From an uncultured Bacilli bacterium (lineage in GTDB: Bacteria; Bacillota_I; Bacilli_A; RF39; UBA660), in contig CANQTE010000007.1 of the NCBI GenBank assembly GCA_947626695.1, forward strand, positions 1-34,543: a DNA stretch of 34,543 nucleotides. Reading direction: 5' to 3'. Of this stretch, positions 2 through 34,543 are shown in pieces. Position 1 is the first letter of the stretch. Each line of letters opens with the position of its first letter. Below the pieces are notes generated by a model. It was given only the letters and a program-made list of their open reading frames with translations, ran no database searches and was not told the DNA's origin. The position numbers and the translations under genes are program-made.

Positions 2-940
2 AACATAAATAAAAAAGGCACTAAGTGTTATGTTTATTTAGATATCAAAAATGGCATATCTGGAACAGAATTATTAGGAAAATATACTGTAAATAGTACA
101 AGTGATGGATGTCCTGAATATGCTGATACTCCATCAGTAACAAGTGTAAAATCTTCAGGAAGTTTGCTCTGTAAAGGAAAAGATGATTTTGGAGATACAT
201 ATTATTTTAGAGGAAATCCAACAAATAACTGGGTTAAAATTGGAAACTTTTACTGGAGAATAATAAGATTTAATGGAAATGGAAGCATAAGATTAATATA
301 TTCTGGAAATGGTAGTGCTCAGACAAGTGGAACAGGTACTCAATTAAGTTCTACCTCTGCATATAATAGTTCAAATAATAATGCACAATATGTAAAATAT
401 GATAATAGTACTATAAAAGGTGTATTAGACAGTTGGTATGATACTAATTTAAAGAGTACTTATGGCAGTAAGGTGGATGGATCTGCTGGTTTCTGTAATG
501 ATGTAGACAATGGCTCAACTTCTAGCAGTTATCAATATTTTAAACCATATGTCAGAATAATAACTAATAAAAGACCAACATTTAAATGTAATACTAAAGA
601 TAATTTATTTACAACAAGTGGTAATTCAAATGGAAATCAGAAATTAACAAACCCGATAGGATTGATTACAGTGGATGAAGCAAATTTTGCTGGAGGTCTT
701 GGAAGTACAAATAATAAGGGTTATTACTTATATACTGGTCAAGCCTACTGGACCATGTCTCCTAATTTTTTGAGTGGCAGTTATGCTCACATGTTTCCTG
801 TGCTTAACGATGGCACCCTCAACGGTGACTACTATGTGGACAGCTCGTTGGGTGTCCGTCCTATCATAAATTTAAGGGCTGATACTCTATTTAAAGAAGG
901 TGGAACTGGTATTTCTTCTAATCCATACATCGTAATTTAG
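2..940 (+). CDS. Exported protein with C-terminal variable patch, 5' end outside window
   Basis: The reading frame is open to the window edge, so the TTG at 164 in the ORF track is not the real start; 312 codons are visible. The visible part matches the paralogue at 1650-2939 throughout: LLGKYxVNSTSxGCP, a CKGKD...TYYFRG segment, the block GNFYWRIIRFNGNGSIRLIYSG, and the end YWTMSP...GVRPxINL. The C-terminal arrangement (YWT.SP, then YA..F.V...G, then GVRP) resembles DUF6273-like and C-type-lectin-fold domains; that is a motif-level inference. The gene ends in GTG...NPY, as such surface proteins often do. Codons for roughly residues 255-289 form a GC-rich patch unlike the rest of the gene. 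A 34-bp hairpin element follows the stop. The function is unknown; a surface adhesin or ligand-binding role is possible. Confidence 0.8.
   Translation, partial: NINKKGTKCYVYLDIKNGISGTELLGKYTVNSTSDGCPEYADTPSVTSVKSSGSLLCKGKDDFGDTYYFRGNPTNNWVKIGNFYWRIIRFNGNGSIRLIYSGNGSAQTSGTGTQLSSTSAYNSSNNNAQYVKYDNSTIKGVLDSWYDTNLKSTYGSKVDGSAGFCNDVDNGSTSSSYQYFKPYVRIITNKRPTFKCNTKDNLFTTSGNSNGNQKLTNPIGLITVDEANFAGGLGSTNNKGYYLYTGQAYWTMSPNFLSGSYAHMFPVLNDGTLNGDYYVDSSLGVRPIINLRADTLFKEGGTGISSNPYIVI
764..868 (+). other. GC-rich variable patch in first paralogue
   Basis: By hand count 49 of 105 bases are G or C (about 47%), against well under 30% in the rest of the gene. The flanks are about 85% identical to the paralogue, but inside the patch only the scaffold positions Y-A, F, V, G and GVRP agree. 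Confidence 0.65.
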
Positions 941-974
941 CTTGCTTAAGTAGCTCTAATTCATACTTAAGCAT
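941..974 (+). repeat. 34-bp hairpin element, copy 1
   Basis: The 34 bases after the stop are identical to 2952-2985. They contain a perfect 10-bp stem (TGCTTAAGTA / TACTTAAGCA) with an 11-base loop. No T-run follows this copy directly, so it is not a standard terminator by itself. It sits about 75 bases downstream of the variable patch in both genes. Confidence 0.75.
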
Positions 975-992
975 GATAGTGAATATTTCTCA

Positions 993-1041
993 AAAAAATA
1001 CTGTTATAATTATTTTTTAATAATTAATCGCAGTATTTTTT
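993..1041. terminator. Bidirectional AT-rich terminator
   Basis: An 11-bp inverted repeat AAAAAATACTG / CAGTATTTTTT encloses a 27-base loop between the convergent first paralogue and the XRE gene. The A-run and T-run at its ends give a U-tract in either direction. The minus-strand stop of the regulator lies at its right edge. Confidence 0.55.
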
Positions 1042-1492
1042 ATTTTAAATATTTAGGATTATCTATTCTTCCAAGTAAATAATCCGCAGAAATATTAAAT
1101 TTATGACATATTGCATATAAAAAAGAAGTAGGTATAGTAGTTTTACCTAACTCATATCTACACCAAACTGAGTGGTCAATATTTAAAAATTCTCCCATTT
1201 TTACTTGAGTATAATTTTTTTCAATACGTAATTCTTTTAAACGTTTCTTTAAAATTTCTTTATTAAAACTTTTTAATGTCTTATTATAATTTTTATTATT
1301 TGTTAGCTCAAATATATAATCAATAGATATATCAAATATATCACAAAACTTAATTAAATTTTTTAAAGTTATTGTGTCATGACCTTCTTCGTTCATCCCA
1401 TATGTTCCAATAGCTATATTTAATTTTTTAGCAACTTCTTTTTGAGTTAGTTCCATTTCTTCCCTTATATCACGTATTTTTGTTAATTCCAT
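1040..1492 (-). CDS. XRE-family regulator with two tandem HTH domains
   Basis: This 150-aa protein holds two Cro/CI-type helix-turn-helix units. The first (residues about 4-62) has RDIREEMELTQKEVAKKLNI and a degenerate recognition region. The second (about 82-142) is well formed, with RLKELRIEKNYTQ, a RYELGKTTIP turn and the ending ISADYLLGR typical of XRE proteins. There is no other domain, so it is a DNA-binding protein that probably acts as a dimer or pseudo-dimer. It lies between two surface-protein paralogues, convergent with the first and divergent from the second. A 16-bp palindrome overlapping the presumed start site of the second paralogue is a candidate operator. The ribosome site (GGTGAAGAAG) is weak. 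Family assignment is firm; the target is inference. Confidence 0.85.
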   Translation of the reverse strand: MELTKIRDIREEMELTQKEVAKKLNIAIGTYGMNEEGHDTITLKNLIKFCDIFDISIDYIFELTNNKNYNKTLKSFNKEILKKRLKELRIEKNYTQVKMGEFLNIDHSVWCRYELGKTTIPTSFLYAICHKFNISADYLLGRIDNPKYLK

Positions 1493-1566
1493 ATCTTCTT
1501 CACCAATTTAATTCTATCAACATTTTTTAGTCAATAGTTTATTTATAGGAAAATAACACATTTTTA

Positions 1567-1595
1567 TTGACAATTTATAATTGAAAGATTATAAT
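1567..1595 (+). promoter_or_regulatory. Consensus sigma-A promoter of second surface-protein gene
   Basis: TTGACA at 1567-1572, a 17-base spacer and TATAAT at 1590-1595 match the vegetative consensus at every position. Transcription should start near 1602, giving a leader of about 48 bases. Confidence 0.85.
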
Positions 1596-1605
1596 TTTAG
1601 TATAA

Positions 1606-1621
1606 ATTAGAAATTTCTAAT
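1606..1621. promoter_or_regulatory. 16-bp palindrome, candidate operator
   Basis: ATTAGAAATTTCTAAT is a perfect palindrome placed over the predicted start site of the strong promoter at 1567-1595. A half-site (AATTAGAAAG) recurs just before the ribosome binding site. A protein bound here would block the promoter; the adjacent XRE protein is the obvious candidate, by inference only. Confidence 0.45.
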
Positions 1622-1649
1622 ATTATTGATAATTAGAAAGAAGGAAAAA

Positions 1650-2939
1650 ATGGAAATTGAAAAGTTAAGTAAAGGATATTTTAAAAAATTTATTATAATA
1701 GTCATAGCTATAAGTATATTTGGAGTTATATTTATAAATAGAAGTAAAGCTAAGTATAGAGTAACACAAAGTATACAAGTAGTGAGTGGTGAGGTTAATT
1801 ATACCAACCCTGATTTTAGTATGCTAGGTGTAAAATTACAAAGTGCAAACGGTAGTAGTGATTATGTTTCGGCAAGTAATAATGAAGTACCTACAAGTGG
1901 TTATAAATTAAAACCTTTAGGTGATGGCGCAACTGATAGTTATTGTACCATTAATGGAACAAGAAATAATACAGGAATTACAATTGCTTATGAAAACGGA
2001 ACTGTAACTTTTAAAGGCATAGCAGACCAAGGAACTAGATGTTATTTGTTTTTTGACTTACAGACTAATTCAGAGTTATTAGGTAAATATGCAGTAAATA
2101 GTACAAGTGAGGGATGTCCTAATTATGAAGATGCACCATCAGTAACAAGTGTAAAATCTTCAGGAAGTTTATTTTGTAAAGGAAAAGATAACGATAATAA
2201 AGATACATATTATTTTAGGGGAACCACAACAAACAACTGGGTTAAAATTGGAAACTTTTACTGGAGAATAATAAGATTTAATGGAAATGGTAGTATAAGA
2301 TTAATTTATTCTGGGAATGGTAAAGCCGAAACAAGTGGAACTGGCACACAGATAAGTACCTCTGAATATAATAAATCATATGATAATGCACAATACGTAA
2401 AATATGATAATAGTACTATAAAAAGTGTATTAGATAGTTGGTATAATACTAATTTAAAAAGTGCTTATGGCAGTATGATGGATGGAGAAGCAGGTTTCTG
2501 TAATGATGCTGATACTGGTTCTTCTATCTATTATTTTAAACCATATGATAGAATATTTACTAATAAAACACCAACATTTAAATGTAATACTAAAGATAAC
2601 TTATTTACAAGAAGTGGTTATTCAAATGGAAATCAAAAATTAGCGAACCCAATCGGTTTAATTACTGCGGATGAAGCAAGTTTTGCTGGAGGACTTGGAG
2701 GCTCAAATAATACTGAATATTACTTGCATACTGGTCAAAATTACTGGACAATGTCTCCGGCTTATATTCATAGCAGTGGTTATGCGAACGTGTTCATTGT
2801 ACATAGCAGTGGCAGTTTCGACAACTACATTTTGCATAACACTATGCCTGGCGTCAGACCTGTCATAAATTTAAAAGCTAATACAACATTTAAATCAGGT
2901 GGAAATGGCACTTCTAATAATCCATACGAAGTCGAATAA
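1650..2939 (+). CDS. Exported/anchored protein with C-terminal variable patch
   Basis: This is a 429-aa paralogue of the truncated gene at the window start. The ORF track starts at a TTG (1626), but the ATG at 1650 has an AAGAAGG ribosome site five bases upstream and gives a clean signal: a basic N-terminus, then a hydrophobic segment at about residues 13-30. The following AKYRVTQSIQVVSGEVNY stretch resembles the start of TasA/camelysin-like exported proteins. The middle carries several cysteines, likely disulfide-bonded. A conserved block, GNFYWRIIRFNGNGSIRLIYSG, precedes the C-terminal YWTMSP...GVRPVINL domain, which resembles DUF6273/C-type-lectin folds. Residues about 371-406 are the variable, GC-rich patch. 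It is transcribed from a near-perfect promoter and is probably monocistronic, ending at a hairpin and a terminator. Ligand unknown. Confidence 0.8.
   Translation: MEIEKLSKGYFKKFIIIVIAISIFGVIFINRSKAKYRVTQSIQVVSGEVNYTNPDFSMLGVKLQSANGSSDYVSASNNEVPTSGYKLKPLGDGATDSYCTINGTRNNTGITIAYENGTVTFKGIADQGTRCYLFFDLQTNSELLGKYAVNSTSEGCPNYEDAPSVTSVKSSGSLFCKGKDNDNKDTYYFRGTTTNNWVKIGNFYWRIIRFNGNGSIRLIYSGNGKAETSGTGTQISTSEYNKSYDNAQYVKYDNSTIKSVLDSWYNTNLKSAYGSMMDGEAGFCNDADTGSSIYYFKPYDRIFTNKTPTFKCNTKDNLFTRSGYSNGNQKLANPIGLITADEASFAGGLGGSNNTEYYLHTGQNYWTMSPAYIHSSGYANVFIVHSSGSFDNYILHNTMPGVRPVINLKANTTFKSGGNGTSNNPYEVE
2760..2867 (+). other. GC-rich variable patch in second paralogue
   Basis: By hand count 46 of 108 bases are G or C (about 43%), inside a gene otherwise under 30%. 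From the shared Tyr-Ala to the shared Gly-Val-Arg-Pro the two paralogues align without a gap over 24 codons, yet most codons differ, often at more than one base. Confidence 0.65.
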
Positions 2940-2951
2940 GCATATAAATAA

Positions 2952-2985
2952 CTTGCTTAAGTAGCTCTAATTCATACTTAAGCAT
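2952..2985 (+). repeat. 34-bp hairpin element, copy 2
   Basis: Identical to 941-974, with the same 10-bp stem and 11-base loop. The sequences on either side of the two copies differ, so identity is confined to the element. Confidence 0.75.
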
Positions 2986-27656: not shown

Positions 27657-30600
27657 ATGAAAGAAAAATATACCTTAGGCTTAGATATTGGAACAAATTC
27701 AGTAGGATGGGCTGTAATATATGATAATAATTTTAAAGTTATGAAAAAAAGAAGAAAAGCTTTATGGGGAGCTAGTTTATTTAATGTGGCAAAAACCGCG
27801 GAAGCAAGAAGATTATCACGTAGTTCAAGAAAAAGATATGATAGAAGAAGACAGCGTATAAAATTATTACAAGAAGAATTTAATGAAGAAATGGATAAAG
27901 TTGATAATTTATTTTTTGCTAAACTTAAAGAATCAAAATATAGAAAAGATGATATTGAAAATAAAAAAATAGAAATTTCTAAATTAGAAAAAGAAAAATA
28001 TAAAGAATTATTTGGCATGCATTCTGGCGAATATAAAACTATATATCATCTTCGAAAAAGATTAATTGAAAACACAACTAAAGAGGATATTCGTCTAGTT
28101 TATTTAGCTATTCATCATATAATTAAATATCGTGGTAATTTTTTATATGGAACAGGAAAGTTTGAGATTAATAATATTCCTATAAAAGAAAAACTAGAAA
28201 ATGTTTTTGAAGATCTAATGGGAGTTTACAATATAGATTATGAAGAATTAGAGCAAGCTTTATATAATAAATCTAAAAATGATAAAAAAATATTTATTGA
28301 AAAAGAATTAAAAAATAACTTTGATAGTAAAATTGCTAAAGAACTTACTAAAGCTTTAATTGGTGATAAATTTGATATTGCAACTATTTTTGATATTGAA
28401 TTAGAAGAAAAACTAAAAATAAGCTATAAAGGATCAGAATATGACGATAATCTTTCTAAAATAGAACAAAATTTAAATGAGGAACAAATAGAAATATTAA
28501 ATGGTTTAAAAGAAATATATGATAATGTGTATTTAAAATTATTATTTAAGGGTAGTAATGCCGAAAATATTTCTTCCCTAATGGTTGAAAAGTACAATAT
28601 TTTTAAAGAAGATTTACAAAATTTAAAATCTTTATATAGACTTAATAAAAAGTTATATAAAAGAATGTTTAAAACTACTAATAAAAAAATTTGTGACTAT
28701 GATAACTATATTAAAAAAGGAAATTATGAAGAATTTACTAAAATTATATTAAAAGATTTTGAGTTAATTAATGATAATTTATTAGATGAAAATTTAAGAA
28801 TTATTGAAAATAATATTATAGAAAAAATTAATAATAATACTTTTATGCCTAAAATAACCGATGTAGATAATGGTAAATATCCTTTTCAATTAAATGAAGA
28901 AGAATTAGTAAAAATTATTGAAAATCAAGGAAAATATTATAATTTTCTTTTAAATAAGTGTAATGATGGAACATATAAAATAGTTAAATTATTAAAGTTT
29001 TGCATTCCTTATTATGTAGGTCCTTTAGGAAATACTACTTCATCTCCTTTTTTTACTAACCCTAATTATTGGCTTAAGAAAAAAATCGAAAATGTAAAAA
29101 TAACACCATATAATTTTAATGAAGTTGTAGATTTAGATACTTCCGCAGAAAATTTTATAAACAGAATGATTGGAAACTGTAGTTACCTTTTAAATGAAAA
29201 AGTAATTCCAACTAATTCCATACTTTATTCTAAATTTAAAGTATTAAATGAATTAAAACAAATAAAAGTAGGAGATAAAGGAGAAGAGGAAAGATTAACT
29301 ATAGACATGCAAAAAAGAATTTATCAAGAATTGTTTTTAAAAAATAATACAGTTATAACAGATAAAAAATTTAAAGAATATTTAAAATCTACTAATGAGT
29401 TTTCAATGTATGAAGATATATCTGTTACAGGTTATTCAGGAGATGATAGATTTGCAAATAATATGGCCTCTTTCGTGGACTTTTTTGGAGAAAATGGCTT
29501 CTTTAAAGATACTAACTATAAAATAGATGATGCTGAGGAAATAATAAGACTAATAACAATTTTTGAAGATAAAGAAATACTTAAAAGAAGAATAGATAAA
29601 GAATTTGTAAATTTAAGTGAAGATGTTAAAAAAAGAATTTGCAATAAAAAATATAAAGGTTGGAGTAATCTTTCTAAAAAGTTATTAACAGGAATATATT
29701 ATCAAGATAAAGAAACAAGTATAAATAAATCTATTATAACTCTAATGGAAGAAACACCTGAAAATTTTATGCAAATAATTAATAATAAAGAATATAATTT
29801 TGATAAAAAAATTAAAGAGTGCAACATAATAGATAATAATGCTAAATTAAATTATAGTCTAGTTAAAGATTTGGTTACTTCACCTGGAGCAAAAAGAGGA
29901 ATATATATAGCTTTAAAAATAGTTAAAGAAATAGTTTCTTATCTAGGTTATGAACCAACTAATATAGTCTTAGAAATGGCAAGAGGCGATGAGAAAAAAG
30001 TAAGAAGTTATGATAGAAAAAAATATATAGAAAATTTGTATAATAAGCATATAAATGAAATTGGTAATTATCAAAAATTAAAAAGAGAATTAAATAATTT
30101 AAATTCAAAAGATATAGATGATAAGTTATTTTTATATTTTATTCAAGAAGGTAAAAGTTTATACTCTAATACTCCATTAGATATTAATAGATTAGATGAA
30201 TATGAAATTGACCACATAATACCTAGAACTTTAATTAAAGATAATTCGCTTGAAAATAAAGCCCTTGTCTTAAGAGAGGAAAACCAAATCAAGGCCGCAA
30301 ATTATGTTTTACCAGAAAGTTTTAGAAATATTAACAATAAAGGTTGGTGGCAACATTTAAAGAAAATAAATTTAATTTCAACTAAAAAATATAATAATTT
30401 ATGCCGTTATAAATTTGACCAAAAAAGTATAGAAGGATTTATTAATAGACAATTAGTTGAAACAAGACAAATATGTAAACACGTTGCCCATATTTTAGAA
30501 AACTTTTATAAAGAATCTAAAGTTATATATTTATCAGCTTCTTTATCTCATAATTATAGAGAAAAATATGAGTTATATAAATTTAGAGAAATAAACAATT

Positions 30601-31718
30601 ATCATCATGCTCATGATGCTTATCTTGCCGCAGTTTTAGGTGTTTATAAAGAAAACTATTTAAAACTAAATGTAGATTATGACGCTTTAAAAACTTTAAA
30701 TAAAAAATTATTTAATGAAAATAGATATAGAGAAATTAAAGATGGATATGTTATTAATAGCCTAGACCCTACTTTAAATGAATACTTTGTAAATAATGAA
30801 ACTGGTGAAGTTTTTGATGCTCTAAAATTTAAAGAAACTATTGAAAATACTTTATATCGTAATGACATTCTTATAAGTAAAAAAACTGAATTTAATACAG
30901 GAGAATTATTTGGAAAAACTATGCAACCACACCCTAAAGAAGAAAAGAAAAAATTATCAAAAAGTAAAGGCGTACCTTTAAAAAAAGGAATGGATATAAA
31001 TAAATATGGCTATTATACTGGTATTATATCTGCTTATGTATGTTTAGTAAAATACGAAAAAAATAATAAAGAAGAGCAAAGGATGGTACGTATCCCTATA
31101 TATATAGATATAGAATCTAAAAAGAATATAAATTCTAAAATTGATTATTTAAAAGATTTATTAAAATTAGATAGTAATAATAAAATAGAAATAATTAAAG
31201 ATAAAATACCTTTTAATACCCTTTTAGATTGGAAAGGTCAAATATGTTATTTAGTAGGAGCAACAGAAGATACAGTTGAAGTTTGCAATGCTAAAGAATT
31301 TAATATTAATAAAGATAATATGATTAAATGGAAATATACTTTTAAACGTTTATTTAGTGAAAATAAAAATAAAGAAAAAATTATTGATGATGTTTCTTAT
31401 CATGTCCAAATAGATGAAATAATTAAATATATTATAGAAAAAATAGAAAAAAAGTATGAGTTATATAAAGACTTATTACCTAAAATAAACAAAATGTTTG
31501 GAGAACAAGAACTCCCTAATACAACTTTAGAAAATAAAGAAAAAATCATAAAAGAAATGTTTAAACTTTTAAATACTAGTAGCCTTACTGCAAATATGAA
31601 ATCTTGGAATAAAGATTATTCCACTGCCTTCGGTAGAAAAAATAAAAAAACAATTAATCATGTCAAAATTATAAATAAATCTATTACAGGAATATGGGTA
31701 AAAGAAAATGAGTTTTAG
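27657..31718 (+). CDS. cas9: Cas9 RNA-guided endonuclease, type II-A
   Basis: At 1353 aa this matches the long type II-A Cas9 proteins. RuvC-I has the catalytic aspartate at residue 10 (LGLDIGTNSVGWAV). The arginine-rich bridge helix follows (LSRSSRKRYDRRRQRIK, about 58-74). RuvC-II is VLEMARGD with Glu773, the HNH domain is EIDHIIPRT with Asp852 and His853, and RuvC-III is HHAHDAYLAA with His986 and Asp987. All nuclease residues are intact, so it should cut both strands. The C-terminal ~250 residues form the PAM-interacting region; its PAM cannot be read by eye. Guided by crRNA and the adjacent tracrRNA, it cleaves invading DNA. AGGAG lies 11 bases before the ATG. It overlaps cas1 by 11 bases. 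Confidence 0.97.
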   Translation: MKEKYTLGLDIGTNSVGWAVIYDNNFKVMKKRRKALWGASLFNVAKTAEARRLSRSSRKRYDRRRQRIKLLQEEFNEEMDKVDNLFFAKLKESKYRKDDIENKKIEISKLEKEKYKELFGMHSGEYKTIYHLRKRLIENTTKEDIRLVYLAIHHIIKYRGNFLYGTGKFEINNIPIKEKLENVFEDLMGVYNIDYEELEQALYNKSKNDKKIFIEKELKNNFDSKIAKELTKALIGDKFDIATIFDIELEEKLKISYKGSEYDDNLSKIEQNLNEEQIEILNGLKEIYDNVYLKLLFKGSNAENISSLMVEKYNIFKEDLQNLKSLYRLNKKLYKRMFKTTNKKICDYDNYIKKGNYEEFTKIILKDFELINDNLLDENLRIIENNIIEKINNNTFMPKITDVDNGKYPFQLNEEELVKIIENQGKYYNFLLNKCNDGTYKIVKLLKFCIPYYVGPLGNTTSSPFFTNPNYWLKKKIENVKITPYNFNEVVDLDTSAENFINRMIGNCSYLLNEKVIPTNSILYSKFKVLNELKQIKVGDKGEEERLTIDMQKRIYQELFLKNNTVITDKKFKEYLKSTNEFSMYEDISVTGYSGDDRFANNMASFVDFFGENGFFKDTNYKIDDAEEIIRLITIFEDKEILKRRIDKEFVNLSEDVKKRICNKKYKGWSNLSKKLLTGIYYQDKETSINKSIITLMEETPENFMQIINNKEYNFDKKIKECNIIDNNAKLNYSLVKDLVTSPGAKRGIYIALKIVKEIVSYLGYEPTNIVLEMARGDEKKVRSYDRKKYIENLYNKHINEIGNYQKLKRELNNLNSKDIDDKLFLYFIQEGKSLYSNTPLDINRLDEYEIDHIIPRTLIKDNSLENKALVLREENQIKAANYVLPESFRNINNKGWWQHLKKINLISTKKYNNLCRYKFDQKSIEGFINRQLVETRQICKHVAHILENFYKESKVIYLSASLSHNYREKYELYKFREINNYHHAHDAYLAAVLGVYKENYLKLNVDYDALKTLNKKLFNENRYREIKDGYVINSLDPTLNEYFVNNETGEVFDALKFKETIENTLYRNDILISKKTEFNTGELFGKTMQPHPKEEKKKLSKSKGVPLKKGMDINKYGYYTGIISAYVCLVKYEKNNKEEQRMVRIPIYIDIESKKNINSKIDYLKDLLKLDSNNKIEIIKDKIPFNTLLDWKGQICYLVGATEDTVEVCNAKEFNINKDNMIKWKYTFKRLFSENKNKEKIIDDVSYHVQIDEIIKYIIEKIEKKYELYKDLLPKINKMFGEQELPNTTLENKEKIIKEMFKLLNTSSLTANMKSWNKDYSTAFGRKNKKTINHVKIINKSITGIWVKENEF

Positions 31719-32574
31719 AACAGTAGTAATAACAGAACAAGCAAAATTAAATTATAAAAATAGATTTTTAGTCGTAAAAAAAGGAATAGATGAAAAATAT
31801 GTTCACTTATCAGAAATAGATACTCTTATTATAGATTCAATATCTGTATCTATTTCCACTTATTTATTAAAAGAACTTGCAGATAATAAAATTAATGTTA
31901 TATTTTGTGACGAAAAACATAACCCTTTTAGTGATTTAGTTCCTTTATATAGTAGGCATAATACTAGCAAGCAAATACTTAAACAAATTAAATGGAAAGA
32001 TAAAACAAAAAATGAGCTTTGGACTTTAATAGTTAAAAATAAACTTATTAACCAAGCTCAATTGTTGAAAAAAATTAAAAATTCTAATCTAGATTTAATT
32101 TTAGACTATATTAATGAAATTAAAATTGGAGACAAAACAAATAGAGAAGGACACGCTGCTAAAGTATATTTTAATTCTTTATATGGCAAAAAATTTAGTC
32201 GTGATTCTGAAAATAACATAAATTCTGCCCTAAATTATGGCTATGCAGTTCTTTTATCAACAGTTAATAAAGAAGTTATAAATAATGGATACTTAACTCA
32301 AATAGGAATTCATCATAAAAATGAATTTAACCCTTTCAATTTAAGTTGTGATTTAATGGAACCATTTAGAGTAATTATAGATAGCTTTGTTTATTATAAT
32401 CAAAAAAGAGAGTTTGATTCTAAATATAAATTAGATATAATTAACATTTTTAATACTAGTTTTAAATATAAAAATAAAGAATATACATTAAAAGATATAA
32501 TAAAACTATATGTTAAAAATACTTTAGAATACTTTGATGAAAATAAATACCAGGAGTTTATTTATGAGGGATAG
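31708..32574 (+). CDS. cas1: Cas1 spacer-integration endonuclease, type II-A
   Basis: Cas1, with Cas2, integrates new spacers at the leader end of a CRISPR array. The 288-aa length is normal for type II. The protein starts MSFRTVVITEQAKLNYKN, close to other type II-A Cas1 proteins (VISKRAKLSYKN-like). The metal-binding active-site residues are visible: the glutamate in NREGHAAKVYFNSLYG, the histidine in GIHHKNEFNPFNLSCDLMEPFR and the aspartate/glutamate pair of that same segment. It overlaps cas9 by 11 bases and cas2 by 11 bases, so the three are translationally coupled. Nothing suggests inactivation. Confidence 0.96.
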   Translation: MSFRTVVITEQAKLNYKNRFLVVKKGIDEKYVHLSEIDTLIIDSISVSISTYLLKELADNKINVIFCDEKHNPFSDLVPLYSRHNTSKQILKQIKWKDKTKNELWTLIVKNKLINQAQLLKKIKNSNLDLILDYINEIKIGDKTNREGHAAKVYFNSLYGKKFSRDSENNINSALNYGYAVLLSTVNKEVINNGYLTQIGIHHKNEFNPFNLSCDLMEPFRVIIDSFVYYNQKREFDSKYKLDIINIFNTSFKYKNKEYTLKDIIKLYVKNTLEYFDENKYQEFIYEG

Positions 32575-32884
32575 ATTTATGAGAACGATAGTATTTTTTG
32601 ATTTACCTAATGTTTATGCTAAAGATAAAAGAAATTATTTATTGTTTCGAAAATTTTTAGTTAATGAAGGTTTTATTATGATGCAAGAATCAGTCTATTC
32701 TAAAATTGTTATGAATAGTGAACAAAGTAATTTACTTGCTAAAAGAATTAGAAAAAATGCTCCTAGTAAAGGATTAATTCAACTTCTTACTATAACAGAA
32801 CAACAATATGCAAAAATTGAAAATATTATAGGAGAAGTTAATACCAAAATTATTAATTCAGAAGAAAGGTTAATAGTTTTATGA
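32564..32884 (+). CDS. cas2: Cas2, type II-A
   Basis: The ATG at 32564, seven bases after CAGGAG, gives a 106-aa protein starting MRDRFMRTIVFFDLP, matching the MSYRYMRMILMFDMP start of type II-A Cas2. The longer ORF-track start at 32534 would overlap cas1 by 41 bases. The ferredoxin-like fold is clear: the FFDLP strand with the conserved aspartate, KRNYLLFRKFLVNEGFIMMQESVY, and the C-terminal GLIQLLTITEQQYAKIE. Cas2 bridges two Cas1 dimers in the integrase. It ends in TGA, overlapping the ATG of csn2 by four bases. Confidence 0.93.
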   Translation: MRDRFMRTIVFFDLPNVYAKDKRNYLLFRKFLVNEGFIMMQESVYSKIVMNSEQSNLLAKRIRKNAPSKGLIQLLTITEQQYAKIENIIGEVNTKIINSEERLIVL

Positions 32885-33078
32885 ATATTAAGTTTAGTTT
32901 TATAGAAAGTATTATTAATATAGATAATGAAAATATTATGTGTTTAGAAATAGAAAATAAAAAATATTTTTATCGTATAGTTGATATTTTAAATAAATAT
33001 TCTCAAGGAATAATCATTGAAGATAATCTTTTTTCAATAATAAATTATGTAGAATTCTACATAATTGTTTTTATGTAG
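32881..33078 (+). pseudogene. csn2: csn2 5' fragment, interrupted by recombinase element
   Basis: The position, directly after cas2 with an ATGA overlap, and the start MNIKFSFIESIINID...CLEIENKKYFYRIVDIL match the N-terminus of Csn2, the ring-shaped DNA-end-binding protein needed for spacer acquisition in type II-A systems. Csn2 is normally over 200 aa, but this frame ends after 65. Only about 54 codons look native; the last eleven are read from the palindrome and first bases of the recombinase element (from about 33043). The rest of csn2 is expected beyond the element, outside the window. Acquisition should therefore be impaired while interference by Cas9 is not. The identification rests on context plus the N-terminal motif. 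Confidence 0.75.
33043..33066. repeat. Perfect 24-bp palindrome at the csn2 junction
   Basis: The half-site AATTATGTAGAA is followed immediately by its exact reverse complement. It begins where the csn2 frame loses its native sequence. It is probably the recombinase recognition site or the element's left end. Confidence 0.7.
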
Positions 33079-33152
33079 AAAATTTAGTTATGTAGAAAAA
33101 ATGAAAAAGAAGCCCTTAAATAAAGGCTTCTATCAAAAATTTTTCTACATAA
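33071..33152. repeat. Recombinase-site cluster with nested hairpins
   Basis: TTATGTAGAAAA recurs at 33071-33082 and 33088-33100, the latter facing an exact 13-bp inverted copy (TTTTTCTACATAA) at 33140-33152. Inside that pair is a hairpin AGAAGCC / GGCTTCT (33108-33131). With the palindrome upstream there are five copies of the ATGTAGAA core within 110 bases. The inner hairpin may also end cas transcription, but no T-run follows it directly. Confidence 0.65.
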
Positions 33153-33202
33153 TTTTATGTTAAAATAGTATTGTATTCATAAAAATAAGGAGTGTGATAA
33201 AA

Positions 33203-34183
33203 ATGGATACAATACAAATTAAAGGCTCACATAAAAGAGTAAATCAATTTTTAAAGGAAGGAGGACAATTATCAGAAGATAAAATTGATAATAAAATAAT
33301 TATATCTTATTTCAATTATTTAAAGTCAATAAATAATAAGGAAAATACAATATGTGAAAAATTAAAATTCATATGTTTATTAGAACGATATCTTATATTA
33401 AAAAGCAAAAATTTTAAAACATTTAATAAAGAAGATATTTATGATTATTTTAATGAGTGTTCAAGATTATCTTGGGGATTATCATATAATAATGAAAACA
33501 AATTAAATATTAAATTATTTTTAAACTGGACTTATCAAAATAAAATGACTAAAATATCAGGAGATATGATTTTACCTAAAATAGTTTGGCATAGAAATAC
33601 TAATATAAGAACTTATTATACAAAAGATGAAATAACTAAAATGTTAAATGCAATAGACATAAGAACTAAACAGGGAAAAGAAGATTATTTGATATTAAGT
33701 TTAATTTGTTATTTAGGGTTAAGAATAAGTGATGTAATTAATTTAAAGTTAAGTAATATTGATTTTAATGAAAATAAAATTTCTATAATTCAATATAAAA
33801 CTGATAATTTATTAACTTTACCTCTTATAGATAAAGTTAAGTACCCTTTACTTGATTATTTAAAAAATGTAAGGCCTAAATGTAATTTAGATTATGTTTT
33901 TATAACTAACAAAGAGCCATATAGACACCATATTGAATTAAAAACATATAATCATAAAGTTAAAAATTATTTTATAAAAGCAGGAGTAAATATTAATGGA
34001 AGAAAACATGGCTTTCATAGTTTAAGACATAGTTTTAGTACATCACTTTTAAAAGAAAATATATCTTTATATTCTATATCAACTATATTAGGTCATCAAA
34101 ATATTAAAACAACAATGTTTTATTTAGATATAGATACTTCTAAACTTAAAGAACTAGCTTTGGAGGTACCATATGTTAAATAA
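33203..34183 (+). CDS. Tyrosine recombinase (first of a tandem set)
   Basis: The ATG at 33203 follows AAGGAG; the ORF-track GTG at 33194 adds three residues. The 326-aa protein has a SAM-like N-terminal domain (about 25-120) and the catalytic domain with every active residue: Arg in CYLGLRISDVI, Lys in QYKTDNLLTLPL, HxxR as HSLRHSFSTSLL, the second His in LGHQNIKTTMFY, and the Tyr nucleophile in that FYLDID segment. It cuts and rejoins DNA through a phosphotyrosine link. It overlaps the next recombinase gene by 11 bases. Tandem overlapping recombinases occur in RIT (recombinase-in-trio) and Tn554-like elements. The cluster of ATGTAGAA sites upstream is its likely target. Confidence 0.92.
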   Translation: MDTIQIKGSHKRVNQFLKEGGQLSEDKIDNKIIISYFNYLKSINNKENTICEKLKFICLLERYLILKSKNFKTFNKEDIYDYFNECSRLSWGLSYNNENKLNIKLFLNWTYQNKMTKISGDMILPKIVWHRNTNIRTYYTKDEITKMLNAIDIRTKQGKEDYLILSLICYLGLRISDVINLKLSNIDFNENKISIIQYKTDNLLTLPLIDKVKYPLLDYLKNVRPKCNLDYVFITNKEPYRHHIELKTYNHKVKNYFIKAGVNINGRKHGFHSLRHSFSTSLLKENISLYSISTILGHQNIKTTMFYLDIDTSKLKELALEVPYVK

Positions 34184-34543
34184 TTATAATTTTAAAAGCA
34201 TTTTTAAAAATGAATTAAATTACTTTATTAAATATAGAAGAAGTTTAGGACTTAAGTATGAAAATGAAATATATAGATTATATAATATAGATAAAATTTT
34301 ATATAAATTGAAACTTAAAAATAAAATAATAAATAAAGAAACATTTTATAAATTAACCAAAAGAAATAGTATGCAGGGTGAAAATTATGCTAGACAATAT
34401 GGTGTAACAAAAGATTTTTGTAAATTTTTAATATCTAATGAATATAAAAATATATATTATGAAGAAAAGAAATTTAATGTTGTAAATAATTATAAGCCAG
34501 TTATATTTACTGATAAAGAAATTAATTTATTATTTGAAACAAT
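34173..34543 (+). CDS. Second tyrosine recombinase, 3' end outside window
   Basis: The frame opens with ATG at 34173, six bases after TGGAGG, inside the end of the first recombinase, and runs to the window edge (123 codons); it is not in the ORF track. It begins MLNNYNFKSIFKNEL with FIKYRRSLGLKYENEIYRLY, then YARQYGVTKDFCKFLIS and YKPVIFTDKEINLLFET. That is the N-terminal core-binding domain pattern of the second recombinase in tandem recombinase elements; the catalytic domain lies beyond the window. The 11-base overlap implies coupled translation and joint function. A third recombinase after it is predicted but not seen. Confidence 0.82.
   Translation, partial: MLNNYNFKSIFKNELNYFIKYRRSLGLKYENEIYRLYNIDKILYKLKLKNKIINKETFYKLTKRNSMQGENYARQYGVTKDFCKFLISNEYKNIYYEEKKFNVVNNYKPVIFTDKEINLLFET

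Follow-up and report, generated by a model that had tools for sequence, protein, structure and literature searches.

The window analyzed here is the whole of a 34,543-nucleotide contig, C7, from an uncultured Bacilli bacterium (GCA_947626695.1, CANQTE010000007.1), whose assembly totals 1.48 Mb in 116 contigs and is 93.7% complete. Two paralogous genes with a helix-turn-helix gene between them lie at the start of the window. Each carries a short variable patch near its 3' end, the position at which the targets of diversity-generating retroelements (DGRs) are rewritten (Table 1).

In a codon-aligned comparison the two genes are 84.3% identical in DNA sequence over 197 codons, from about position 160 to the patch (82.6% across all 247 aligned codons 5' of the patch), whereas within the 29 aligned codons of the patch identity falls to 49.4% for DNA and 20.7% for amino acids. 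The 29 codons 3' of the patch are 72% identical in DNA. A preliminary description of this DNA had put identity at about 85% before the patch with a sharp drop inside it, as these values bear out. It had also called the patches G+C-rich, which was right in kind, although its figures of 43-47% inside and under 30% around them were slightly off: the patches have 46% and 40% G+C against 30-31% before them, and 36% after.

Table 1 Features of the two paralogous genes in the window and template sequences elsewhere in the same genome.
Feature	Position	Strand	Remarks
Gene 1, DUF6273-like protein of the variable family	2..940	+	5' truncated by contig start; weak Pfam DUF6273 match, 16.6 bits (cut-off 23.5)
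Gene 1 patch 5' border TCTCCT	758..763	+	template start is TCTCCG
Gene 1 variable patch	764..850	+	87 nt, 46% G+C
Gene 1 patch 3' border GGTGTCCGTCCT	851..862	+	lacks the CGYCCA/GTAAT border of recent recipients
Inverted repeat TGCTTAAGTA-N11-TACTTAAGCA, candidate target-site hairpin	943..973		3' of gene 1, no T run after it
Gene 2, full-length paralogue, 429 aa; N-terminal hydrophobic helix, C-terminal DUF6273/C-lectin-like domain	1650..2939	+	
Gene 2 patch 5' border TCTCCG	2754..2759	+	
Gene 2 variable patch	2760..2849	+	90 nt, 40% G+C
Gene 2 patch 3' border GGCGTCAGACCT	2850..2861	+	lacks the CGYCCA/GTAAT border of recent recipients
Inverted repeat TGCTTAAGTA-N11-TACTTAAGCA, as after gene 1	2954..2984		3' of gene 2
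Intergenic AAC-rich template	C19:11243-11353		homology starts and stops with the patch
Intergenic AAC-rich template	C75:3512-3611		homology starts and stops with the patch

Relatives of the gene 2 protein are encoded at about 56 loci of the genome, many of them cut by contig ends. In an alignment of 29 members the stretch from YWTMSP to GVRPVINL is mostly without consensus, and in 39 collected patches both sequence and length vary between YWTMSP and P[VI]INL, with 28-37 residues from TMSP to P[VI]INL. A subset of the family has a recurrent codon skeleton, GCG NNC GTG TTC NTT GTG .. GGC NNC CTC NNC NNC .. GGT GTG CGC CCA, in which fixed codons (GCG, GTG, TTC, GGC, CTC and GGT GTG CGC CCA) are interleaved with NNC and NNT codons. 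As this alternation is the pattern expected from randomization of AAC and AAT codons in a template, we take the skeleton to be the imprint of an AAC-rich template. The exact border of active recipients, CGYCCA/GTAAT, is kept at twelve loci of the genome.

A hypothetical template written from the codon skeleton was used as a search query and returned the family genes plus two intergenic copies, on contigs C19 and C75, which also have their flanks in common. A covariance model of the 3' flank found exactly these two copies in this genome and none of the templates lies within the window (RNA model with filters off, best E 0.4). Across the genus the 3' flank is present in 32 of 36 species, with up to 24 matches per genome, and many templates stand in tandem at a spacing of about 300 bp, including one array of five. 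AAC is the most frequent template codon; adenine occupies 36% of first and 36% of second codon positions in the templates, but 5.5% of third positions. The C75 template and those on contig C25 of genome G018 lie 3' of an apparent uvrA gene, as one copy and five copies, respectively, which suggests a fixed locus with tandem expansion.

Differences between the templates and the variable regions (VRs) of the family genes are concentrated on template adenines. When the C19 template was compared with the VRs of its own genome, 288 of 551 adenines (52%) but only 175 of 1176 other bases (15%) differed; the Fisher p of 2e-57 is overstated, as VRs and sites are not independent. Genus-wide, with the best template for each VR chosen by plain identity, differences affected 49% of A, 20% of C, 17% of G and 15% of T, whereas between templates they affected 21% of A and 14-16% of the other bases. 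Template adenines were replaced by G (302), T (188) and C (127), the order of substitution seen in known DGRs (PMC3521204).

Since in G004, which has 18 templates, nearly all of the fetched family genes have AT-rich patches without the skeleton, the clean template-VR pairs come from G026, G018 and others. The cleanest is in G026, where template and VR lie in cis within 600 nt and over 85 nt differ at 11 of 30 adenines and at 0 of 55 other bases; both contain the same unusual TTC codon. A template on contig 10 of G018 agrees with a VR on contig 48 at 53 of 57 non-adenine sites, and 13 of its 28 adenines are changed. Although inexact, this pair is the strongest candidate for an effect in trans. 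A VR of G011 matches a template of G009, with differences at 1/60 non-adenine and 16/25 adenine sites. In surveyed DGRs at least about 75% of mismatches fall on template adenines (PMC8144416). Here the best pairs alone attain that level, with 11/11 (G026), 16/17 and 13/17; the pooled share is 617/1176 (52%), which is low because exact templates are often missing.

Gene 1 of the window conforms to this pattern: its patch differs from the C19 template at 18 of 33 adenines and 13 of 68 other bases (Fisher p = 5e-4), and against its three best templates the bias has p = 0.002-0.06. The gene 2 patch and the C19 template have a distinctive 3' stretch in common. Judging from their drifted patches and borders, both window genes are probably older recipients.

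The templates are embedded in cassettes with the layout of an RNA gene. Three helices hold in an alignment of 61 cassettes: P1 pairs the two ends around the template, whereas P2 and P3 make up a 3' domain. P2 (UAUCCU/AGGAUA) is invariant within the genus. Standard pairs fill 99.5% of the 1281 paired cells, a percentage that is favored by the selection of cassettes partly for a P1 match, although the compensatory pattern of P3 is not. Two-sided changes occur in 80 paired cells versus 22 in shuffles, and a slide of 1-3 columns abolishes the signal. In 61 of 90 cassettes, against 7 of 88 control segments, a TATAAT box stands no more than 26 nt 5' of P1, mostly at 4-7 nt. Of the same 90 cassettes, 58 are followed by a hairpin that has a T-rich tail, against 14 in shuffles. 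The two loci that were scanned gave no Rfam family match. A few cassettes from other genera, G137 and G041 among them, seem by eye to have the same layout with different P2 sequences; the RNA model is tuned to one genus, its matches in others are few and two of those in G137 fall in sequence that is not cassette-like. Thus, each cassette looks like a stand-alone RNA gene having a promoter-like box, a closing helix, the template, a 3' hairpin domain and often a terminator.

Most template-bearing species have a three-gene operon that encodes a MutS domain I-like (MutS-I-like) protein, a bAvd-like protein and a reverse transcriptase (RT). The MutS-I-like protein of about 135-140 aa matches PF01624 at residues 5-48 only (26 bits, cut-off 20.6), and the bAvd-like protein of about 117-119 aa matches PF22296 (40.3 bits, cut-off 40). 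The RT of about 370 aa, as read in the genomes of relatives, has the motifs GLPIGNMTSQ and YMDD, and the SQ dipeptide is a hallmark of DGR RTs (PMC3521204). These sequences argue for a DGR-type RT, the likely enzyme for the dispersed templates. In G018, which is 99% complete, it is the sole RT found with Pfam RVT_1. Of the 32 template-bearing species 23 have the main-type operon, whereas the four template-less ones all lack it (hypergeometric p = 0.012, computed by hand with ancestry ignored). The VR border motif is missing from all four of the latter and also from G017. At the loci read, the operon lies between a DUF378 gene and what we take to be a MYG1-like gene. The fetched operon flanks, up to about 6 kb, contain no template cassette; operon and templates lie apart. 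The public records with the operon are assemblies from metagenomes and bear the labels uncultured Bacilli, Tenericutes, Mycoplasmatota or Candidatus Caccenecus. A second operon type at L209, L210, L212, L213, L219 and L232 encodes an RT that shares about 42-44% identity with that of the main type, in most cases with Avd-like and MutS-like partners; G029, one of the four template-less species, has an operon of this related type.

The presumed target domain is DUF6273, although Pfam detects it in only 11 of 29 family members. The C-terminal domain of gene 2 is predicted with a mean pLDDT of 93 and the patch, residues 207-236 of the modelled domain, falls in a beta-hairpin region. A structure search with the full-length model returned mostly DUF6273 phage proteins and one DUF6273-bearing peptidase. 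The best solved-structure match of gene 2 is a gut bacterial IgA peptidase, the N-terminal domain of which has been described as DUF6273 (PMC12402451). A sequence profile search of the Protein Data Bank gave no match. In papers on phage DGR targets the VRs lie at the C-terminal end of DUF6273 and the domain is C-lectin-like (PMC10743442; PMC11792537). Hence, the lectin-like scaffold proposed earlier is likely by way of that literature, but in Foldseek searches with the domain model canonical C-type lectins appeared only below significance. The N-terminal hydrophobic helix of gene 2 suggests that its protein is anchored and probably surface-exposed.

Given these findings, we consider it highly probable from the sequences that the patches are VRs of a chromosomal DGR whose template repeats take the form of numerous small RNA genes, separate from one another and not linked to the RT. 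Each cassette would be transcribed from its own promoter to give an RNA of about 200-300 nt with its ends paired as P1, which would present the AAC-rich template together with the P2/P3 hairpin domain. The RT, with its bAvd-like and MutS-I-like partners, would then copy the template with errors at adenines, and the cDNA would replace the homologous TCTCCG-to-CGYCCA stretch near the 3' end of a target gene by retrohoming in trans, distant loci included. The part rewritten would be a surface hairpin of the DUF6273/C-lectin-like domain on an anchored protein probably exposed at the cell surface. Templates that differ in length and in fixed bases would add a combinatorial layer on top of adenine randomization.

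The DGR reading in the preliminary description has thus gained support in the A-rich, intergenic template repeats, two in this genome and up to 24 in relatives. Collection of the family genome-wide, as it had advised, showed variation recurring between YWTMSP and GVRPVINL, hence no chance feature of one pair. It had held silent cassettes and different templates to be equally possible; many different templates do exist, but plain cassette swapping fails to account for adenine-biased differences. Differences between the paralogues beyond adenines would be expected if their VRs stem from different templates and have since drifted. The search it had outlined for an A-rich template and an RT found the former in the genome itself but a fitting RT only in relatives.

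Several observations weigh against our interpretation. The adenine bias of gene 2 is not significant (12/34 adenines and 16/71 other bases relative to C19, its best template at 73% identity). Most VRs of the genome fit neither the C19 nor the C75 template exactly, and assignment of each VR to one of the two was rejected on that ground. Some of the good VR-template matches are cross-species and, so far as the comparisons go, show template kinship, not direct descent. Nine of the 32 template-bearing species have assemblies without the main-type operon, two of the nine having the related type, and in four species (L225 in G001, L218 in G007, L220 in G009 and L226 in G013) the RT frame is apparently broken, be it by sequencing error, decay or recoding, with the operon neighbors mostly intact. 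The operon is also not found in the window's own assembly, where the RT query matches only a prophage RT on contig C4 and a group II-type RT on C10, and the case is therefore weaker for the window's species than for the genus.

This absence invites the reading that the patches are relics of past diversification, the RT having since been lost from the window's lineage so that they now merely drift. The presence of only two templates, the drifted borders of the window genes and the lack of significant bias in gene 2 fit such a history, but twelve loci of this genome have the exact active border, and the adenine bias there is strong. The operon's usual neighbors were likewise not found in a search with a concatenated operon and neighbor query, which had no positive control and is only suggestive; this fits a stretch missing from a 116-contig, 93.7% complete assembly, a simpler reading than loss. 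We regard the relic explanation as unlikely, though a serious contender. The C4 and C10 enzymes, the only two RTs in the assembly, might themselves act on the dispersed templates, all the more as the C4 locus is DGR-like and has a DUF6273 target. However, that locus has its own, different template, the C10 enzyme is a group II-type maturase (TIGR04416), and G018, which is 99% complete, has templates but no RT other than that of the operon. We find this proposal scarcely credible.

Gene conversion of the ordinary kind, among paralogues or silent fragments without reverse transcription and with the intergenic templates as silent donors, would draw on the many paralogues and truncated 3' pieces, and one G004 VR seems chimeric, its 5' half matching a template and its 3' half not. 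Such donors would be copied unchanged, yet the differences from the nearest template sit on adenines, and the G026 pair has none at its 55 other sites. Moreover, silent donors would not be expected to have adenines at the first two codon positions only, to conserve RNA helices and have promoter-like boxes, or to co-distribute with a DGR-type RT operon; we judge this route very improbable. Point mutation with strong diversifying selection on a binding loop, without any special mechanism, would suit the location of the variation, a hairpin predicted at the surface of what is probably a receptor domain. It leaves unexplained the G+C-rich patches, the codon skeleton, the AAC-rich intergenic templates, the concentration on adenines and the adenine-only differences of the G026 pair, and we give it almost no credence.

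Returning to a chromosomal DGR with detached templates, we favor, with moderate confidence, a new DGR architecture in which a trans-acting complex of RT, bAvd and MutS-I takes its templates from a library of autonomous RNA genes spread through the genome. These would form one helix-closed RNA class with interchangeable templates, expanding in tandem and evolving its own templates, so that template choice and adenine mutagenesis would diversify dozens of surface receptors at two levels. As for the MutS-I-like protein, it is speculation that it may shield mismatched cDNA from repair, an idea that gains interest because mutS was deleted in one recent study to help preserve DGR substitutions (PMC12875486).

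Other loci of the genome deserve mention. The C4 locus (L033, about 10466 down to 7191, minus strand) is a prophage-borne, DGR-like locus of conventional layout, with a target gene of the DUF6273 tail type, a gene of 139 aa, an A-rich template at about L033 8665-8575 and an RT of 374 aa; by eye, most differences between its template and VR fall on template adenines. Adjoining the prophage is the isolated 3' portion of a family gene, which has the active border (C4:18987-19247; L033 4988-5248, minus strand); it may stem from a gene that the prophage split, or be a donor fragment. On C10 (L034 2678-5478) the gene for the 684-aa group II-type RT/maturase follows an exodeoxyribonuclease III gene at a distance of 5 bp. 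The RT/maturase ends in a tail with CxxC and has ISLGNN in place of the usual QG; it was rejected as partner of the templates for its group II type (TIGR04416, E 2e-69). At the far end of the window (27657-34183) are cas9-, cas1- and cas2-like genes followed by a tyrosine integrase gene (PF00589); in window 32800-34543 there are no direct repeats of at least 20 nt.

If correct, detached and interchangeable templates would mean that many separate RNAs can program a single RT within the same cell. The cassettes are an RNA class without Rfam match, and their natural variants supply an alignment that bears on the RNA structure needs of a DGR RT. To our knowledge these needs have so far been studied mainly in phage BPP-1. 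The usual route to DGR discovery is through repeats around the RT gene, as in one published pipeline (PMC8144416); with templates far from the RT the present system would be largely invisible to such searches, so that counts of DGR use in gut Bacilli may be too low.

Remote targets, action in trans, separate transcription of RT and template, and the use of several templates are all known from DGRs already. In the open-access literature we found no report of RT-detached templates as many autonomous folded RNA genes or arrays, nor of a MutS-I-like partner. A similar system is the DGR of Bordetella phage BPP-1 (brt, avd, TR, mtd), in which an RT and Avd use an AAC-rich, non-coding template to rewrite, with a bias to adenines, the 3' end of a gene for a C-lectin-type protein, and an inverted repeat stands 3' of the VR (PMC3240598, PMC6642488); the lectin fold has a likely and the inverted repeat a candidate counterpart here. 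The BPP-1 DGR is one compact locus with one template, whereas the genus studied here has many templates far from the RT and an extra MutS-I-like gene. The candidate hairpins also differ in dimensions, with a 10-bp stem, a loop of 11-13 nt and a distance of 62-113 nt from the motif end here versus 7-10 bp, 4 nt and 4-34 bp in BPP-1. Inverted repeats of this 10-bp class follow more than half of the family genes examined; the repeat, whose loop starts GCTCTAA, has no T run after it at either window copy. Among the loci fetched they occur only in the window's own genome, and some active VRs have none.

A template adjoining the RT gene is usual in DGRs, though not strictly defining, and is not the arrangement here in the fetched flanks, up to about 6 kb. 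The remote-target DGRs of cyanobacteria (PMC7517822), Thiohalocapsa (PMC10907252) and Treponema denticola (PMC4891356) resemble our system in having dispersed paralogous variable proteins, some of them diversified in trans, but their templates stay at the RT locus (Thiohalocapsa has several DGR loci, each with its own RT and template), whereas here the templates are dispersed as autonomous RNA gene-like cassettes. Tentaclins (PMC10743442) and targets of Faecalibacterium prophages (PMC11792537) share the DUF6273 domain with a C-terminal VR that forms a surface beta-hairpin; those are phage structural proteins, whereas here a large family of apparently anchored cellular proteins is unlinked to its DGR. 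More than one template for many VRs was also reported by Yan et al. in 2019, who found about 80% of multi-VR DGRs to have one template and an extreme case of six templates and 91 pairs, according to the authors without adenine bias (PMC6642488). By comparison, the present system has up to 24 templates per genome, an adenine bias and a common RNA scaffold.

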